Made by a program: the position numbers and the translations under genes
In this document: positions 1,867-61,505 of the stretch, in pieces
Layout of the letters: every line of letters starts with the position of its first letter
Numbering within the stretch: position 1 is the first letter of the stretch
Assembly (NCBI GenBank): GCA_958296185.1
Contig: CATQIB010000006.1
Coordinates: 197,001 to 261,000, forward strand
Source: an uncultured Mesonia sp.
Lineage (GTDB): Bacteria; Bacteroidota; Bacteroidia; Flavobacteriales; Flavobacteriaceae
DNA: 64,000 bases
Direction of reading: 5' to 3'
The notes under the pieces: generated by a model
Databases searched by the model: none
Seen by the model: only the letters and a program-made list of their open reading frames with translations
What the model was told of the DNA's origin: nothing

Positions 1867-3153
1867 ATGTCAAAAAAAGCTACGATAGAATTTGATGGAA
1901 AAAAATATGAATTTCCAATAGTAGTAGGAACCGAAAATGAGGTTGCTATTCAAATCAAATCCTTAAGAGGAGATACTGGTGGGTTAATAACTTTAGATCC
2001 TGGGTATAAAAATACTGGATCATGTGAAAGTGCAATTACTTTCCTAAATGGAGAAGAAGGGATTTTGCGTTATAGAGGATATGCCATCGAAGAATTAGCC
2101 GATAATGCTAGTTTCCTTGAAGTAGCGTATTTATTGATTTTTGGAGAACTTCCAACTCAACAGCAATTAGATAAATTGTATGCCGATATAAAGCGCGAGT
2201 CCAATGTAGATGAAGAGATGAAGAAAATCTTAGATGGTTTTCCTAAATCAGCGCATCCTATGGGAGTTCTTTCTTCATTAACCAGTGCTTTGATAGCATT
2301 TAACCCAAGTGCCGTTAACGTTGACTCCGAAGAAGATATGTACAATGCTATCATCAAACTTTTGGCTAAATTCCCGGTTTTAGTAGCTTGGACTTTACGC
2401 AAAAGACAAGGTCAACCACTTGATTATGGTGATAGTAGCTTAGGTTATGTAGAGAATATTTTAAAAATGATGTTCAAGAAACCTAGCGAAAATTATGAGG
2501 TAGACCCAGTAGTGGCTTCGGCCTTAAACAAACTATTGATTTTACACGCAGACCACGAACAGAATTGTTCAACATCAACCGTACGTATTGTAGGTTCTTC
2601 TCACGCAGGTTTATTTGCATCGATTTCAGCAGGAATATCTGCTTTGTGGGGTCCTCTTCACGGGGGAGCAAATCAAGCGGTTATCGAAATGCTTGAGGGT
2701 ATAAAACAAGATGGTGGAGACACTAAGAAGTACATGAAAAAAGCTAAGGATAAAAACGATCCTTTCAGATTAATGGGCTTTGGACACCGCGTTTACAAAA
2801 ATTTTGATCCTCGGGCAAAAATCATAAAAAAATCTGCAGACGAAGTTCTTGGAAAATTAGGGGTGCAAGATCCTGTGCTAGATATTGCTAAAGGTTTAGA
2901 AAAAGAAGCATTAGAAGATAGTTACTTTGTAGATAGAAAATTATATCCAAATGTTGACTTTTATTCAGGAATTATTTATCGTGCACTAGGTATTCCTACA
3001 GAAATGTTTACGGTGATGTTTGCTTTGGGTAGACTCCCAGGCTGGATCGCACAATGGAGAGAAATGCGCTTAAAGAAGGAGCCAATTGGTAGACCAAGAC
3101 AAGTTTACACTGGTGAAAATTTAAGAAGTTTTAAACCTATGGAAAATAGATAG
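1867..3153 (+). CDS. gltA: citrate synthase (type II)
   Basis: Citrate synthase condenses acetyl-CoA with oxaloacetate at the entry of the TCA cycle. The 428-residue protein has the N-terminal beta domain found in the hexameric type II enzymes. Catalytic residues are recognisable: His265 in WGPLHGGANQA, His307 in FGHRVYKNFDPRA and Asp364 in VDFYSGIIYRALG. The HADHEQNCSTSTVR motif is present around residues 227-240. A strong terminator follows 20 bp after the stop, so the gene looks monocistronic. Malate dehydrogenase lies about 23 kb further on, not in the same unit. Confidence 0.98.
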   Translation: MSKKATIEFDGKKYEFPIVVGTENEVAIQIKSLRGDTGGLITLDPGYKNTGSCESAITFLNGEEGILRYRGYAIEELADNASFLEVAYLLIFGELPTQQQLDKLYADIKRESNVDEEMKKILDGFPKSAHPMGVLSSLTSALIAFNPSAVNVDSEEDMYNAIIKLLAKFPVLVAWTLRKRQGQPLDYGDSSLGYVENILKMMFKKPSENYEVDPVVASALNKLLILHADHEQNCSTSTVRIVGSSHAGLFASISAGISALWGPLHGGANQAVIEMLEGIKQDGGDTKKYMKKAKDKNDPFRLMGFGHRVYKNFDPRAKIIKKSADEVLGKLGVQDPVLDIAKGLEKEALEDSYFVDRKLYPNVDFYSGIIYRALGIPTEMFTVMFALGRLPGWIAQWREMRLKKEPIGRPRQVYTGENLRSFKPMENR

Positions 3154-3170
3154 ATTTAAAATATAAATCC

Positions 3171-3208
3171 AAAAAAAGCTTCATTAAAATATGAAGCTTT
3201 TTTTTAAT
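3171..3208 (+). terminator. rho-independent terminator of gltA
   Basis: AAAGCTTCAT (3175-3184) and ATGAAGCTTT (3191-3200) form a 10-bp stem with a 6-nt loop. It is flanked by A and T tracts, so it could work in both directions. It ends shortly before the next start. Confidence 0.88.
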
Positions 3209-3223
3209 TAAAAGAGATATAGA

Positions 3224-4138
3224 ATGTTAAATTTGAATATAAAAAACGAAACATCTCGCTTGCGATCGGTTATTCTAGGAACGGCCGAAAGCAATGGTCC
3301 AACACCAACTATAGAGGAGGCGTATGACCCAAAATCTGCAGAGTATATTAGAGCAGGAACTTACCCTCTAGAAGAAGATATGCGCAAAGAAATGGCAGCA
3401 GTTGATGCAGTTTTAAAGAAGTATGATGTTCAAGTTTTTAGACCAGAATTAATCGCTGATTACAATCAAATCTTTTCTCGAGATATAGGTTTTGTGATTG
3501 ATGATACCTTTATTAAGGCTAATATTTTACCAGACCGGGAGCGTGAATTGGAGGCCATTCAATACGTTATAGATCAAATTCATCCGAGTAAAGTTATTCG
3601 ACTGCCAGAAGATTGTCATATTGAAGGTGGAGATGTTATGCCCGTTCAAGACTATATTTTTATAGGAACCTACAGAGAAGCAGATTACCCCAACTACATA
3701 ACGGCCAGAACCAATATGAAGGCTGTTCATAAAATGCAGGAGATTTTTCCTAACCGAAAAGTAATATCATTTAACTTGCGAAAATCTAGTACAGATCCTC
3801 GCTTAAATGCATTGCATTTAGATTGCTGTTTTCAACCAGTCGGAAAAGACAAAGCTATAATTCATGAAAATGGTTTTTTAAATAAAGATGAATTTGAATG
3901 GTTGGTGAATTTCTACGGTAAAGAAAACTTATTCTTTATTGATAGTGATGAAATGTATTCAATGAATAGCAATATCTTTTCAATCGCGGAAGACGTAGTG
4001 ATTTCAGAGAAAAACTTTACTCGCTTAAATAAATGGTTACGCGCAAATAACATAACTGTAGAAGAGGTTCCTTACGCAGAAATTTCGAAACAAGAGGGGC
4101 TTTTACGTTGCTCTACCTTACCCCTTATTAGAGACTAA
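3224..4138 (+). CDS. DDAH/arginine deiminase-like guanidino-group hydrolase
   Basis: This is a member of the guanidine-modifying enzyme superfamily (arginine deiminase, DDAH, amidinotransferase). These enzymes act on the guanidino or ureido carbon of arginine-like substrates through a cysteine thiolate. The 304 residues carry FSRDIGFVIDD (84-94), EGGDV with candidate Glu134 and Asp137, a catalytic-type His198 (LHLDCCF) and a C-terminal nucleophile Cys296 (GLLRCSTLPL). The complete triad suggests an active enzyme. Substrate is not settled: methylarginine, arginine and agmatine-type compounds are all possible. A second superfamily member (CtlX) starts 32 bp after the stop on the same strand, so the two probably form an operon for arginine or citrulline breakdown. 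Confidence 0.82.
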   Translation: MLNLNIKNETSRLRSVILGTAESNGPTPTIEEAYDPKSAEYIRAGTYPLEEDMRKEMAAVDAVLKKYDVQVFRPELIADYNQIFSRDIGFVIDDTFIKANILPDRERELEAIQYVIDQIHPSKVIRLPEDCHIEGGDVMPVQDYIFIGTYREADYPNYITARTNMKAVHKMQEIFPNRKVISFNLRKSSTDPRLNALHLDCCFQPVGKDKAIIHENGFLNKDEFEWLVNFYGKENLFFIDSDEMYSMNSNIFSIAEDVVISEKNFTRLNKWLRANNITVEEVPYAEISKQEGLLRCSTLPLIRD

Positions 4139-50804: not shown

Positions 50805-51566
50805 CTACTTATTTAAATTATTGATTTTATTTTTTAGTTCTTGCATAGAAGCCTGCAATTCCCGCAAAATACCATTGTCTGAGTTGGCATCTAGATTAAA
50901 AGTAAGTTTAGAATTGACTTGCCATAATTCCTGAATTTCAGCTACATTTACTTCAAAGGCAGGATACTCGTCATTAAAAGAAATTAATCGAACACGGCTA
51001 GGATCGGCTAACTTATGCAATTTTTTTACCACTACACTATCATACATAACCACCACATATACACGGTGGTCATTCGCATCACTTATGCTGGGAACAGCTT
51101 TGGCTAACACCCATTCATCTGGTCTAAAATTGGGCAGCATACTATCACCTTCTATTTGAAAACCGCGATAAGTTGCATTTCTAAATTGAGGCAGTGGCAT
51201 ATCAAAAGCGGGCAATTGCCTGTACCAATCAACATCTTGAACATTATGAGGATAACCTGCAGCAGCTTTCTGGTTTACCATAACAATGTTTTCATTCTCT
51301 TCAGAATTAAGGCTAATTACCTTTGGCATGGTATCTACTCGATGCAGAGGCAAACGTTTTTGATTACTTTCACCAAACAACCATAAAGGGTTTATACTAA
51401 ACTGCTTGAGTAACTCCATTACTACACTTCCGCTTAGCTTAGTACGACCGCGTTCAATATCGGCGGTTGAGGTTTTAACTCCTAAAAGAGAAGCAAACTC
51501 GGCTTGAGTTGCACCTTGCTCTTCTCTAATTTCTTTAAATCGACGTATTTCTATTGGTAATTCCAT
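50805..51566 (-). CDS. LexA-like HTH regulator with S24 self-cleavage domain
   Basis: A 253-residue repressor-type protein. The N-terminal XRE helix-turn-helix spans residues ~8-60 (GATQAEFASLLGVKTSTADI). The C-terminal peptidase S24 domain has a putative cleavage site Ala103-Gly104 (KAAAGYP), nucleophile Ser142 (EGDSMLPNF) and Lys181 (SVVVKKL). Spacings of 38 and 39 residues are close to those of LexA/UmuD (34 and 37). The tail (ILRELQASMQELKNKINN) is a probable coiled coil. The start is ATG 51566: the open frame reaches TTG 51572, but that codon lies in the promoter -7 element. It is divergent from a radical-SAM repair-type gene and faces palindromes in the shared gap. Confidence 0.88.
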   Translation of the reverse strand: MELPIEIRRFKEIREEQGATQAEFASLLGVKTSTADIERGRTKLSGSVVMELLKQFSINPLWLFGESNQKRLPLHRVDTMPKVISLNSEENENIVMVNQKAAAGYPHNVQDVDWYRQLPAFDMPLPQFRNATYRGFQIEGDSMLPNFRPDEWVLAKAVPSISDANDHRVYVVVMYDSVVVKKLHKLADPSRVRLISFNDEYPAFEVNVAEIQELWQVNSKLTFNLDANSDNGILRELQASMQELKNKINNLNK

Positions 51567-51569
51567 ATC

Positions 51570-51602
51570 CAAATATACATTATTTAGCGGATATTTTCCA
51601 AA
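51570..51602 (-). promoter_or_regulatory. promoter of the S24 regulator gene
   Basis: On the minus strand: TTTG at 51599-51602 and TATATTTG at 51570-51577, 21 nt apart. The -7 element ends only 3 nt before ATG 51566, which implies a leaderless message. The spacer contains the motif CGGATATTTTCC (51588-51599). Confidence 0.68.
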
Positions 51603-51642
51603 ACTTATTCGGTTATTTTCCGTTTAAACGGATTTAATCCGT
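51588..51642. promoter_or_regulatory. operator-like inverted repeats between the S24 regulator and the radical-SAM gene
   Basis: The perfect 14-bp palindrome TCCGTTTAAACGGA lies at 51619-51632. Overlapping it is ACGGATT-T-AATCCGT (51628-51642), also perfect, with a 1-nt centre. CGGATATTTTCC (51588-51599) resembles CGGATTTAATCC (51629-51640) in the other promoter, 41 bp away. CGGTTATTTTCCG (51610-51622) adds another CGG/CCG pair. The sites cover the -33 to -7 region of the radical-SAM promoter and the spacer of the regulator promoter, as expected for an autoregulating repressor. Confidence 0.6.
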
Positions 51643-51649
51643 AAATTTG
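51642..51649 (+). promoter_or_regulatory. -7 promoter element for the radical-SAM gene
   Basis: TAAATTTG matches TAnnTTTG exactly, 16 nt upstream of ATG 51666. The nested palindromes occupy the region immediately upstream, including the expected -33 position. Confidence 0.6.
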
Positions 51650-51665
51650 TATAAAATCCATATGA

Positions 51666-52928
51666 ATGAATTTTGATAGAATCAAAGAAAAACTTAGCAT
51701 ACTAGCCGATGCGGCTAAATATGATGTTTCTTGTTCGAGTAGTGGCAGCAAGCGAACCAATAAGAAAAAAGGTTTAGGCGATTCAAGTGGAATGGGGATT
51801 TGCCATACCTATACGGCCGATGGTCGATGCGTTTCACTGTTAAAAATTTTGCTTACCAATCATTGTATTTTCGACTGTGCTTACTGTGTAACGAGAAAAA
51901 GCAATGATATTAAACGTGCCGCTTTTAAAGTACAAGAAGTAGTCGATTTAACAATCAATTTCTATAGGCGCAATTATATAGAAGGACTATTTTTAAGTTC
52001 AGGTATTTTTAAAAATGCCGATTATACGATGGAACGCCTCATTTTAGTAGCTAAAAAATTGCGGTTAGAAGAAAACTTCAACGGCTATATTCACTTAAAA
52101 TCTATTCCTGGGGCGAGTGATGATTTGATGTATGAGGCAGGCTTGTATGCCGATCGACTTTCGGTAAATATAGAGATTCCTACTCAAAATGGGTTAAAAT
52201 TACTGGCTCCCGAAAAAAACCGCGAAGATTTTTTAAAACCGATGAAAAAGGTGCGTAATGAGATAGTTAAGTATAAATCTGAAAAAAAACTGATTAAAAG
52301 TACGCCAGTGTATGCGCCGGCCGGGCAAAGTACGCAAATGATTGTAGGGGCTACCAATGAGACCGATGCCCAAGTTATGTATACGGCAGCTCATCTATAT
52401 AAAAAGTATAATATGAAACGGGTGTATTACTCGGGCTACGTTCCTATTTCTTATGATTCTCGACTTCCTGCAATTGGTACAGAGGTTCCCATGCTTAGAG
52501 AAAACCGACTTTATCAAACCGATTGGTTGCTAAGATTTTACGGCTTTTCAATCGAGGAATTATTAAATCAGAAACATCCTAACTTAGACAGTGATATAGA
52601 CCCAAAATTAAGTTGGGCATTACGAAATTTACATCTTTTTCCTGTGGATATAAACAAAGCTGATAAACAACAACTCGCTCGCATACCTGGTGTGGGATTA
52701 AAATCTGTATACAAGATTCTGCAAGCCAGAAAGTACCGTAAACTAGGCTGGCATCACTTAAAGAAAATGGGCATTGCTTTGAATAGAGCTCAATATTTTA
52801 TTTTATGCGATTCACGTGATTTTCTAAAGGCTGATATGAGTCCGCAACAAATAAAATCAAAAATACTTGCTCAAGGAAATAGCAAATACAAGCCTTTGTT
52901 TAATTCTCAATTAAATTTATTTGAATAA
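51666..52928 (+). CDS. putative DNA modification/repair radical SAM protein with C-terminal HhH
   Basis: A 420-residue radical-SAM protein. The 4Fe-4S motif is Cys67-x3-Cys71-x2-Cys74 (HCIFDCAYC), preceded by an N-terminal Ser/Lys-rich and Cys-containing stretch. The C-terminal ~90 residues hold a helix-hairpin-helix DNA-binding motif (NKADKQQLARIPGVGLKSV). It matches the family described as a radical SAM protein linked to a uracil-DNA-glycosylase-like partner (TIGR03916). The partner-type gene follows directly and overlaps the stop region. The chemistry on DNA is unproven. A self-cleaving-type repressor is encoded divergently, which suggests induction by DNA damage. Confidence 0.9.
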   Translation: MNFDRIKEKLSILADAAKYDVSCSSSGSKRTNKKKGLGDSSGMGICHTYTADGRCVSLLKILLTNHCIFDCAYCVTRKSNDIKRAAFKVQEVVDLTINFYRRNYIEGLFLSSGIFKNADYTMERLILVAKKLRLEENFNGYIHLKSIPGASDDLMYEAGLYADRLSVNIEIPTQNGLKLLAPEKNREDFLKPMKKVRNEIVKYKSEKKLIKSTPVYAPAGQSTQMIVGATNETDAQVMYTAAHLYKKYNMKRVYYSGYVPISYDSRLPAIGTEVPMLRENRLYQTDWLLRFYGFSIEELLNQKHPNLDSDIDPKLSWALRNLHLFPVDINKADKQQLARIPGVGLKSVYKILQARKYRKLGWHHLKKMGIALNRAQYFILCDSRDFLKADMSPQQIKSKILAQGNSKYKPLFNSQLNLFE

Positions 52929-52929
52929 A

Positions 52930-53700
52930 ATGAAAATTGTGCTATTTGATCACAGCTTTGAGGGTTTGTTATCTGCCGTTTTTGAGGTGTTTCATTTAAA
53001 ATTAAAAGAGGCAAAATTGATAGGGCAAAACAACCATACTGCATCTTTTTTTGATGAAGAAATTTGGGTAAGCACAGATCAAGAAAAGGCCGCTCGTGTG
53101 GCCAAGGGAATTGTTAAGGTTGGCGGTAAAAGCGATCTCACTTGGTTATACCGATGCTTTTTGAGCGAGTTGGCAGAGGTGCCGCAGTTAATACTTGAAT
53201 ATATACGCCAATTGATGGTTGATAAGCATAGTGGTAAAAATGACTTTAGTCGAAATGTAGTCATACAATTGCAAAAGATTAATAAAATGATTGGGAGAGA
53301 AAAGCATCGAATGGATGCATTTGTGCGTTTCGAAAAAACGGCAGACGGTCTGTATTTTGCGGGTATAGCTCCCGATTTTAATGTGTTACCCTTAAATGCT
53401 AAGCATTTTAAAAATCGTTATGCCGATCAACATTGGTGTATATATGATGTAAAACGAGATTATGGTTTGTTATACAATTTAGAATCCTTAAGGCATGTGC
53501 ACTTGCCATCGGTAAATGCCAACTTACATAGTACGCCATCAAATCTGTTAGCTGAAGATGAAGTGGCTTATAAAAAATTATGGAAAAATTACTTTGAAAG
53601 TACCAACATTCAAGAACGCGCCAATAAAAAACTGCACACTCAACACGTTCCTAAACGATATTGGAAATACTTGAGTGAAAAATATATTTTGGATTATTAA
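52930..53700 (+). CDS. TIGR03915/DUF4130-family probable DNA metabolism protein
   Basis: A 256-residue protein of the DUF4130 type, the constant partner of the radical-SAM/HhH protein upstream. Typical segments are VLFDHSFEGLLSAVFEVF at the N-terminus, KMIGREKHRMDAFVRFEKT in the centre and FKNRYADQHWCIYDVKRDYG. The C-terminal part of this family is related to uracil-DNA glycosylase-like domains. ATG 52930 was used instead of TTG 52921, which lies in the upstream reading frame's last codons. The stop shares TTAA with the convergent ZIP gene. Confidence 0.88.
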   Translation: MKIVLFDHSFEGLLSAVFEVFHLKLKEAKLIGQNNHTASFFDEEIWVSTDQEKAARVAKGIVKVGGKSDLTWLYRCFLSELAEVPQLILEYIRQLMVDKHSGKNDFSRNVVIQLQKINKMIGREKHRMDAFVRFEKTADGLYFAGIAPDFNVLPLNAKHFKNRYADQHWCIYDVKRDYGLLYNLESLRHVHLPSVNANLHSTPSNLLAEDEVAYKKLWKNYFESTNIQERANKKLHTQHVPKRYWKYLSEKYILDY

Positions 53701-58656: not shown

Positions 58657-60192
58657 TTAGAAGTCATTTGGGTTATTTATTATCTTCTGAGCGCGTTCTT
58701 GATGCGCTTCTAAGGTAGATTTATCCATTTTATTAAGCATACTCATCATCATACTCATACGTTGGTTGTCTTTTAGCTTTTCGCGATGAGTAGCTAGAAA
58801 ATTCCAATAAAGCGCATTAAATGGACAGGCGCTTTCTCCGGTTTTTTCCTTTACCTTATAATGACAGTCTTGACAATAGTTACTCATTTTGTTGATGTAA
58901 CTACCGCTAGAGATGTAGGGTTTTGTGGCTACAATGCCACCATCGGCAAACTGACTCATACCGCGAGTATTTGGCATTTCAACCCACTCAATTGCATCTA
59001 TATATATGCCTAGATACCAGGCATCAACCTCATTGGGATGTACACCAGTGAGCAAGGCGAAATTACCTGTAACCATGAGCCGTTGAATGTGGTGCGCATA
59101 GGCAAGTTCTAGACTTTGCGAAATAGCCTGGCTAAGGCAATTCATTTTTGTTTTGCCGGTCCAATAAAAATCGGGGAGTTGGTTTTGGTGGTCCAGTTTA
59201 TTACTTCGGCGATACCCTGGCATTTCTTTCCAATAAATTCCACGCATATATTCGCGCCATCCCAAAATCTGACGTATAAATCCCTCTACTTGAGAAATAT
59301 TAATATCGTTATTGGCTTCGTAGTAAGTGTCTAGAACTTTATCGATAACCTCTTTAGGGGATAGCATTTTGGTGTTTAGTGCAAAAGAGAGTCTAGAATG
59401 AAAAAGGTAGTTTTCTTGCGTATGCATCGCATCTTGAAAATCACCAAAGTGTACTAAGAGCTCATCGCAGAAATACCGCAAAACTTTTAAGCTGTCTTTG
59501 CGCGAGATGGGCCAATTAAATTGTGTTTTGTCTATCTCTCCTATGCTTTTTATATCGGTTTTTCTTATTGCATCTACAATATCGGCTACGTCTTTTCTAA
59601 ATCCTTTTTCGTGCGGAATCGCAGGAGAGCCCTTCCACTTTTTCCGATTACTTTTATCAAAATTCCATTTTCCGCCCTCTGGGTTTTTCTCATCTTGCAT
59701 TAAAATACCATGCTTCTTTCGCATAGCACGATAAAAATACTCCATTACCAATTCTTTCTTGCCTTCAAAAAAATCGGCTAAGTCATGGCGTTGGGTAAAA
59801 AAATGTTCGGTATCATAGCTTTGGGTTTTTATATCTAACCCATCGGTAAGTTCTTTAAGCTGCTCATCTAGCCTATATTCATCGGGTAGGAGGTACTCAA
59901 AGCATTCAATGTCATATTCATCGATTAAGGCTTTTAGGTTGACATTTAAATCATGCTTGTTCTTTTTATCGGTCAGCGTATAGTACACTACTTTATGACC
60001 ACGCTCTTTGAGGTGTTCAGAAAAGTTACGCATTGCTGCAAAAAAACCTACAATTTTTTGAATGTGATGCTTAACATAATCGATTTCTTGCCTCATTTCG
60101 GCCATAAAATAAAGCACATTATCATCTGTAGTAGAGAACCAAGAATGCTTATAATTCAATTGGTCACCCAAAATTAAACGTAAGGTTTTCAT
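58657..60192 (-). CDS. Fe-S-type cryptochrome/photolyase (PhrB-like, (6-4) photolyase group)
   Basis: A 511-residue member of the deoxyribodipyrimidine photolyase-related family (Pfam DPRP). Features are [19 protein letters not shown] at the start, RQILGWREYMRGIYW in the FAD domain and four cysteines spaced as in the 4Fe-4S photolyases (KMNCLSQ, then SNYCQDCHYK, then ESACPFNALYW). These enzymes use blue light to repair (6-4) photoproducts and need FAD and an iron-sulfur cluster. ATG 60192 overlaps the stop of the DASH cryptochrome gene (ATGA), so it is used instead of the longer frame start 60216. Confidence 0.92.
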   Translation of the reverse strand: MKTLRLILGDQLNYKHSWFSTTDDNVLYFMAEMRQEIDYVKHHIQKIVGFFAAMRNFSEHLKERGHKVVYYTLTDKKNKHDLNVNLKALIDEYDIECFEYLLPDEYRLDEQLKELTDGLDIKTQSYDTEHFFTQRHDLADFFEGKKELVMEYFYRAMRKKHGILMQDEKNPEGGKWNFDKSNRKKWKGSPAIPHEKGFRKDVADIVDAIRKTDIKSIGEIDKTQFNWPISRKDSLKVLRYFCDELLVHFGDFQDAMHTQENYLFHSRLSFALNTKMLSPKEVIDKVLDTYYEANNDINISQVEGFIRQILGWREYMRGIYWKEMPGYRRSNKLDHQNQLPDFYWTGKTKMNCLSQAISQSLELAYAHHIQRLMVTGNFALLTGVHPNEVDAWYLGIYIDAIEWVEMPNTRGMSQFADGGIVATKPYISSGSYINKMSNYCQDCHYKVKEKTGESACPFNALYWNFLATHREKLKDNQRMSMMMSMLNKMDKSTLEAHQERAQKIINNPNDF

Positions 60193-61505
60193 GAAAATAG
60201 TTTGTTTTGTAGCCAAGTCTGTTGGTATTTACCCGATGCATCGTATCGGTTGGCTTGACTGTTAATATTAAATTTACGGTCCCGAGGGTCATTGCCTACA
60301 CCGCTGTTATACATCCAATTACCCCAGTTACTGTGCACATCATAATCTATTAGCATACTCTCTAAGTAGGCGGCGCCTATGCGCCAATCTTGTTTTAATT
60401 CCTTAGCCCAATAACTGTTGATATTTTGCCTGCCTCTGTTGCTCATAAATCCGGTTTGAGCTAATTCAATCATATTTGCATTTACAAACGGTTCGGCTGT
60501 TTTACCTTGTCGCCATTGTTCAAATACCTGTGGGTTGTTATGCCAGTTTAGTTTTTCTTTACGGATCCCTGATTGCTTAAAAATAGCATTACCGTGCTTG
60601 AGTGAAATGTATTTGAAGAAGTCTCGCCACAGCAACTCAAAAATTAACCAATAGGTGCTTTCATTTTTTGTAATTTCTTTTTCATAGTTTTTGACCTCCC
60701 AATAAATTTGCCTAGCCGATATACAACCCTTAGCCAGCCACGCCGATAGTTTTGAGCTGTAATCTGCACCCAATAGTCCATTTCTCGTTTTTTTGTAAAC
60801 GCTCAACTTCTGGGTTTTCCAAAAATAATCCTGTATTCTTTTAGAGGCCTCTTGTTCTCCTCCCTTAAAGGGGAAAGCTGAACGAAAATCGGGTTCAAAA
60901 GAATGTAGTCCTAGTTCTTCTAAAGTGGGGATAGCTTCTGAATGTTTACTAAGTGTCTGATGGTAGTTTTTTTGTGGTAGTGGTAGGCAAGCTCTTACCT
61001 TTGCTTCTTTTTCTACTTTTTTTCTAAATGCGGTAAAAACTTCAGGTATTTGGTTAAAACTAAAGGGAATGTCTTTTGGGTGATATAGCATTTGGTCAAA
61101 AAAGGAATGCGCTTTTAGTAGGCTGCACCGATTTTTAATTTTACTATATACCAAAAACTCTTCTTCTGTCCATTCTTTTTGGGAATAGAGAGCGGTAATA
61201 TTAAATTTTTCAACCAACTCGGGTATTTTATCTTCGGGTTTTGCCCTAAAAACCAATAAGTCTATGCCTAGTTTAGTCTTTAAATTCTGTTTTAATTGCT
61301 TTACACTCTCTATAAGAAATTGCGCTCTAAACTTCTCTGTTTTTTTAAAACCATAGGCGGTGGTAGCATAATGGCGAGGATCAAAGCAATAAACCGCATA
61401 TACTTGTGGGTGTTTTTTGCAAGCCGTGTATAAGCTTTTTTGATCGGTAACGCGCAGGTCGTTTCTAAACCAAACTAGTGCGCTGTCTTTTTGTTTTGTC
61501 TGCAT
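60189..61505 (-). CDS. DASH-family cryptochrome/photolyase
   Basis: A 438-residue photolyase-fold protein. The N-terminal antenna domain ([20 protein letters not shown]) is followed by an FAD-binding helical domain with [16 protein letters not shown], the [20 protein letters not shown] motif and [15 protein letters not shown], typical of the DASH branch. DASH proteins repair cyclobutane dimers in single-stranded DNA. The ATG overlaps the end of the DUF2256 gene by 31 bp, and the stop overlaps the next photolyase's start by 4 bp, so all three are translationally linked. Confidence 0.94.

Follow-up and report, generated by a model that had tools for sequence, protein, structure and literature searches.

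A likely SOS master locus of Mesonia-like Flavobacteriaceae: a LexA-type repressor facing a radical-SAM and DUF4130 operon with a candidate clamp-binding tail

Introduction

What does a repressor of the S24 type control when its gene lies head-to-head with a radical S-adenosylmethionine (radical-SAM) gene and a DUF4130 gene? Such an arrangement occurs in a 64,000-nucleotide stretch of DNA from an uncultured Mesonia sp. (contig CATQIB010000006.1, positions 197,001 to 261,000), referred to here as the window and numbered from its first letter. An original prediction, made from the letters alone, had placed an S24 gene divergent from a TIGR03916/TIGR03915 pair. All three genes proved real and lie where they had been placed, and their coordinates and strands bear out the divergent order:

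50805..51572, minus strand: S24 gene (HTH_3 plus S24 LexA), likely ATG at 51566; Pfam and NCBIfam profile matches
51666..52928, plus strand: radical-SAM gene of family TIGR03916; NCBIfam and Pfam matches
52921..53700, plus strand: TIGR03915/DUF4130 gene, likely ATG at 52930, 1 base past the preceding stop

In Pfam, the S24 protein matches HTH_3 (PF01381, E 3.3e-7) and Peptidase_S24 (PF00717, E 8.8e-11). The radical-SAM protein matches TIGR03916 over residues 6-418 (E 1e-201, 670.4 bits against a cut-off of 343.5) as well as PF04055, and its partner matches TIGR03915 (E 1.3e-75, 254.3 bits against 112.25) and PF13566 (E 1.4e-50, 171.6 bits against 27). The pair therefore scores far above the cut-offs of TIGR03916/TIGR03915, which with the UdgX family TIGR03914 are putative DNA-repair families, and has the identical gene order.

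We consider it likely that this is the SOS master locus of Mesonia-like Flavobacteriaceae, where LexA would control a clamp-recruited radical-SAM repair enzyme acting with DUF4130. In the proposed mechanism, DNA damage would give rise to RecA filaments, LexA would cleave itself at Ala103-Gly104 and the operon would be induced. The radical-SAM enzyme would then reach replicating or stalled DNA through a helix-hairpin-helix (HhH) and through a C-terminal QLxLF tail that docks on the beta sliding clamp; together with the DUF4130 protein, it would repair or modify a lesion by radical chemistry. The regulator is already of a published kind, and the clamp-like tail on TIGR03916 is apparently new.

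Identity of the S24 regulator

Numbered from the ATG at 51566, the S24 protein has Ala103-Gly104 as its candidate cleavage site and Ser142 and Lys181 as its candidate dyad. Each of these four residues is identical in all 97 distinct homologues, drawn from 111 fetched loci, and the description of a LexA-like protein with an intact Ala-Gly site and Ser/Lys dyad withstood a check for loss of the dyad among those homologues. The protein is the sole S24 match in its genome (the assembly is 90% complete), and its closest relatives among named genomes belong to Mesonia and other Flavobacteriaceae.

Sanchez-Osuna et al. (2021; PMC8565304) worked with Salegentibacter agarivorans DSM 23515, the genome of which has a single match to the window's S24 protein, at 68% identity. 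The S. agarivorans repressor was reported there to bind GGA-N5-TCC in electrophoretic mobility shift assays with site mutants, SOS genes were induced by mitomycin C, and the protein was described as a global SOS regulator; one sentence of the text swaps the motifs of two species. Since the match is the only one in that strain and is 68% identical, the repressor tested is most likely the orthologue of the one in the window. For the same reason, and because no other S24 protein was found in its own genome, the window's protein is classed by its sequence as a non-canonical LexA of Bacteroidota, a use of S24 proteins that has already been published for this phylum (PMC8565304). The GGA-N5-TCC group described in that work, mainly from Flavobacteriaceae, likewise combines HTH_3 and S24 domains, an Ala-Gly site, a Ser-Lys pair and GGA-N5-TCC sites, and is predicted to control dinB-dnaE and a COG1573-COG4277 pair, as here.

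Operators in the shared gap and conservation of the linkage

Does this LexA control the genes that it faces? The 93-base gap between lexA and the radical-SAM gene holds two GGA-N5-TCC operator-like sites, absent from the original prediction, and both stand before the regulator's own gene as well:

51589..51599, strand not assigned: operator 1, GGATATTTTCC (GGA-N5-TCC); motif as given in PMC8565304; kept in relatives
51630..51640, strand not assigned: operator 2, GGATTTAATCC (GGA-N5-TCC), within the palindrome CGGATTTAATCCG; from the motif scan; kept in relatives
51570..51577, minus strand: TATATTTG, -7-like element for lexA; fits the TAnnTTTG consensus, weak alone
51642..51649, plus strand: TAAATTTG, -7-like element for the radical-SAM operon; fits the TAnnTTTG consensus, weak alone

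The -7 element of Bacteroidota promoters has the consensus TAnnTTTG, and because the window contains 110 such matches on both strands the two elements listed carry little weight by themselves. GGA-N5-TCC shows no excess in the window as a whole, with 7 matches against 7.35 expected in shuffles; at this density, the Poisson chance of two sites falling in the 93-base gap is ~6e-5. The sites are also conserved. The 41 head-to-head loci provide 35 distinct intergenic sequences (including those of L040-L043, which are ~1.4 kb long and have room for one gene), all 35 of which contain at least one GGA-N5-TCC and 33 at least two, while 0.71 sequences with at least one would be expected from mononucleotide shuffles. 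Where no radical-SAM gene is nearby, the 250 bp before S24 contain the motif in 62/62 usable loci (one locus at a contig start, L054, was set aside) and at least two sites in 58. It is most likely, judging from these placements, that LexA controls the facing radical-SAM operon, and it would do so by binding both operators.

The original prediction could be checked by asking whether related genomes conserve the linkage, and they do. TIGR03916 is present in 33/149 sampled genomes of the family, 24 of which also have a close S24 orthologue (E <1e-60; the S24 search apparently covered the same draw). Among these 24, the two genes are head-to-head within 500 bp in 19, divergent within 6 kb in 2, and far apart or on different contigs in 3. 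Viewed from the S24 side, 17 of the 80 named loci have a radical-SAM gene facing S24 in the fetched flank, and in four of these the two genes lie ~1.4 kb apart. No description of lexA head-to-head with a radical-SAM operon was found in the part of PMC8565304 drawn on here.

In one long-gap locus (L040, 2725-3948), lexA and the radical-SAM gene are separated by a gene resembling a major-facilitator transporter by eye, and GGA-N5-TCC sites occur close to both; the gap is similar in size in L041-L043.

A clamp-like tail and a second Cys/His set

How would the radical-SAM enzyme find its substrate? An alignment of 103 distinct TIGR03916 sequences, the window's own included, was examined. Most are from Bacteroidota, and the others are from Fusobacteria, Clostridia, Alpha- and Betaproteobacteria, a distant Gemmatimonadota homologue and one viral contig. 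Four features were located on the enzyme:

52908..52922, plus strand: C-terminal QLNLF, residues 415-419, candidate beta-clamp-binding motif; from the alignment and the clamp-binding consensus
51732..51830, plus strand: stretch with Cys23, Cys46-His47 and Cys55, candidate second metal site; 102/103 aligned
51864..51887, plus strand: radical-SAM CX3CX2C, Cys67/Cys71/Cys74; kept in 103/103 aligned
52644..52733, plus strand: helix-hairpin-helix, residues 327-356; PF12836, E 1.5e-5, 25.4 bits, below the 27-bit cut-off

Beta-clamp-binding peptides follow a QL[S/D]LF-like consensus, and clamp binders include Hda (QLxLP) and UmuC. A peptide of this kind stands near the chain end of TIGR03916, where the C-terminus reads QLxL[F/P/L/W]: the Q is invariant (103/103), the next position is L in 98 (M in 4, I in 1), the second L is kept in 101, and the last position is F in 81, P in 11, L in 7 and W in 2. 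The preceding residues 381-414 have a mean conservation of 0.41 in the same alignment. Strict QLxLF occurs in 76/103 TIGR03916 tails versus 1 of 869 control open reading frames (ORFs), and a relaxed pattern in 90/103 versus 8/869; the controls, which include spurious ORFs, were at least 100 residues long and came from the same loci and from the window. The 13 tails outside the relaxed pattern comprise 11 Q[LM]xLPG, all from one family (f17) and resembling the Hda motif, one QLQLTF and one QLSLF situated further upstream. The likeness to Hda and UmuC thus lies in a QLxLF or Hda-like QLxLP near the protein end, and the difference is that the motif here sits on a radical-SAM enzyme, for which clamp binding is a prediction. 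We infer from the conserved peptide that the TIGR03916 tail docks on the beta clamp. A near-invariant tail of this kind hints at where the enzyme would act, and the tail peptide together with the two partner genes offers a directly testable clue to an uncharacterised, widespread enzyme pair.

Of the two motifs first noted on this protein, CxxxCxxC was confirmed as CX3CX2C, and the HhH was recovered as a match under the Pfam cut-off. Conservation is 102/103 for each of Cys23, Cys46, His47 and Cys55, the exception presumably being the Gemmatirosa homologue, the N-terminus of which has none of these residues. This second Cys/His set may form a second metal site. We give even odds to a reading in which TIGR03916, a radical-SAM enzyme that probably has a second metal site, would be a client of the sliding clamp, brought to the replication fork by its near-invariant C-terminal peptide, and together with DUF4130 would repair a lesion directly and with no glycosylase.

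In the literature, searches on radical SAM and the sliding clamp, on TIGR03916/TIGR03915/DUF4130 and its product name, on UdgX with radical SAM, and on COG4277/COG1573 returned, among the matches listed, no functional study of the pair, no clamp motif on it and no mention of the extra Cys/His set. A radical-SAM gene of the TIGR03916 type is reported to be up-regulated under desiccation in Acinetobacter Tol 5 (PMC13130816).

Extent of the regulon

A further question is whether the S24 protein serves only the pair that it faces. Elsewhere in the window's genome (L163 on contig C15 of G000, 1439-1468), two copies of GGAATAAATCC stand directly before the start codon of dinB, with a dnaE-like gene next, which places two GGA-N5-TCC sites upstream of error-prone polymerase genes. 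dinB-dnaE is therefore predicted, from these sites, to be the second LexA operon of this genome. Outside the linked loci, the radical-SAM gene of S. agarivorans, which is unlinked, has one GGA-N5-TCC just before it, and that of Christiangramia has two. CGGANWWWNTCCG was found at three places in the genome: the window's own, between ORFs that are purE-like and purK-like by eye, and inside an ORF that is purH-like by eye.

A number of observations weigh against the reading of the locus as an SOS master locus with a clamp-recruited enzyme. No motif was found before recA or the second dinB of the window's genome (in the fetched stretch, ~1.5 kb upstream), and the LexA regulon may therefore be small. 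Extended operator patterns did not exceed backwards controls genome-wide (3 versus 2 per strand; 14 versus 16), and for this reason the promoters of named genes were relied upon. Five genomes have an unlinked or non-adjacent orthologue, one of which (G404) yielded no locus; of the four radical-SAM genes examined, two have the motif and two have none. After five loci with no upstream sequence (L194-L198) were set aside, neither this motif nor CTAA-N5-TTAG was found at 9 further same-family TIGR03916 loci with no adjacent S24, one of which (L034) was checked for its S24 status. Of the 80 S24 loci, 63 have no TIGR03916 in the fetched flank (4 kb, less at contig ends). As for the enzyme, the 103 sequences are not independent cases because they are related and mostly from Bacteroidota, and the AlphaFold model of the radical-SAM protein is too poor (mean predicted local distance difference test, pLDDT, 39.9) to back the candidate second metal site.

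One could propose, as the original prediction did in calling the locus a self-contained SOS-like unit, that the S24 protein represses nothing but the radical-SAM pair, as the private regulator of a damage-response cassette. Such a cassette would agree with the head-to-head order in 19/24 family genomes with both genes, with the two operators in the shared gap, and with the bare upstream regions of recA and the second dinB. The two sites before dinB-dnaE speak, however, against a self-contained locus, and no second S24 protein turned up in the genome (90% complete). Moreover, those 63 S24 loci have no TIGR03916 in their flank, yet the motif precedes S24 in every usable one, and PMC8565304 reports that the S. 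agarivorans repressor regulates the SOS response globally. A private cassette is thus quite improbable. Given the paired sites before dinB-dnaE and the sole S24 protein, the regulator is most likely the global SOS repressor of the cell, perhaps with a small regulon.

TIGR03916 genes with no lexA beside them were compared more widely. In the 9 sampled family genomes that have no close S24 orthologue, GGA-N5-TCC was not found ahead of TIGR03916. In other families of the phylum, CTAA-N5-TTAG, which PMC8565304 gives as a second Bacteroidota LexA motif, lies within 300 bp of TIGR03916 in 6/16 usable loci, and GGA-N5-TCC occurs in 1/16 (L012, at -186). In a separate locus (L094, 2612-4759), lexA is head-to-head with a gene that is dinB-like by eye, and no TIGR03916 is nearby.

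The DUF4130 partner and uracil repair

What lesion might the pair handle? DUF4130 was predicted in 2013 to work with an SplB-like radical-SAM enzyme and uracil-DNA glycosylases (UDGs) (PMC3765255), and the COG1573-COG4277 pair was placed in the predicted Bacteroidota SOS regulon and described as uracil-glycosylase repair (PMC8565304). The portion of PMC3765255 seen has no mention of a clamp-like C-terminal motif or of the extra Cys/His set. On the uracil base-excision account, the pair would act on uracil or ribonucleotides that error-prone polymerases leave behind. Partners that combine TIGR03915 with UdgX (TIGR03914) in one chain do exist in Azospirillum and Phaeobacter, and the Paracoccus partner is annotated UdgX. 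In Pfam, however, the window's partner and 17 Flavobacteriaceae relatives are DUF4130 only (18/18); in NCBIfam, the window's partner and those of Spirosoma, Fusobacterium and Acetoanaerobium are TIGR03915 only. The uracil-glycosylase label fails for the Bacteroidota partners examined because they have no UDG domain, so that for this branch the published explanation falls away, except if a UDG works in trans, as either of two UDG-domain proteins encoded on other contigs of the window's genome could still do. Overall, uracil repair is an unlikely role.

SplB, the spore photoproduct lyase, is a radical-SAM enzyme like TIGR03916 and is also SOS-linked in Bacteroidota (PMC8565304). A TIGR03916 profile built from 14 close relatives gave five solved-structure hits at E <=1, which are RuvA and ComEA-related HhH pieces and HydG/BATS radical-SAM pieces, with no spore photoproduct lyase among them.

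The DUF4130 partner evolves fast: in the linked loci among the 80 (two near-identical ones excluded), its identity is ~45-51% and that of the enzyme 76-83%. Its structure model is good (mean pLDDT 83.8), and its profile has no solved-structure match at E <=1. A relation of DUF4130 (52930-53697) to DHH proteins was considered and is not claimed; the best Foldseek matches were two DHH-type PAP phosphatase chains (template modelling scores 0.40 and 0.39, root-mean-square deviation 8.4), and comparison of its profile with an ORF of the genome that is RecJ-like by eye gave a probability of 0.3.

Arenibacter loci

The sole strict QLxLF match among the control ORFs was a short Arenibacter ORF before DUF4130. 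In six Arenibacter loci (L099, L103, L108, L109, L112 and L113; ~2900-4000), LexA faces DUF4130 across three GGA-N5-TCC sites, the C-terminal part of DUF4130 no longer aligns, and the radical-SAM gene is absent from its place facing lexA. An ORF of 59-62 residues ending in QLSLFD or QLNLFD precedes DUF4130 in five of the six, with none intact in L109; the L099 ORF has 59 residues from an inner ATG and 107 by its longest reading. No TIGR03916 was found in five of the six genomes, the completeness of which is not stated, and the sixth has a full-length TIGR03916 elsewhere, with no motif before the gene. With the start of the ORF resembling TIGR03916 by eye, it looks as if the enzyme core was lost and the tail kept. 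If this is true, a LexA-controlled clamp-peptide ORF beside an altered DUF4130 would hint that clamp access and DUF4130 have a job of their own.

Neighbourhood and wider distribution

Could the locus instead be a phage remnant, with the S24 protein derived from a phage CI repressor and the pair carried as cargo? The helix-turn-helix of Bacteroidota LexA is CI-like (PMC8565304), which would suit such an origin. Against it, the neighbouring ORFs look housekeeping-like by eye (five were checked in Pfam), and a scan of viral contigs, limited by its pattern, yielded 2 confirmed relatives of TIGR03916. A prophage origin is extremely improbable, and the reading as an SOS locus is preferred. Two adjacent genes at 58657-61505 of the window, with no GGA-N5-TCC site nearby, encode by eye a photolyase-related protein and a cryptochrome/photolyase.

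TIGR03916 exceeds its cut-off in 93/296 sampled genomes of the phylum, and homologues beyond it occur in Alpha- and Betaproteobacteria, Fusobacteria, Clostridia and Gemmatimonadota. Three records filed as plasmids (H2, H3 and H4; 2.1-4.1 Mb) look like mislabelled chromosomes or organisms, for example Fusobacterium and Acetoanaerobium, and one such plasmid-filed record, named Acinetobacter baumannii, contains a 62% match.

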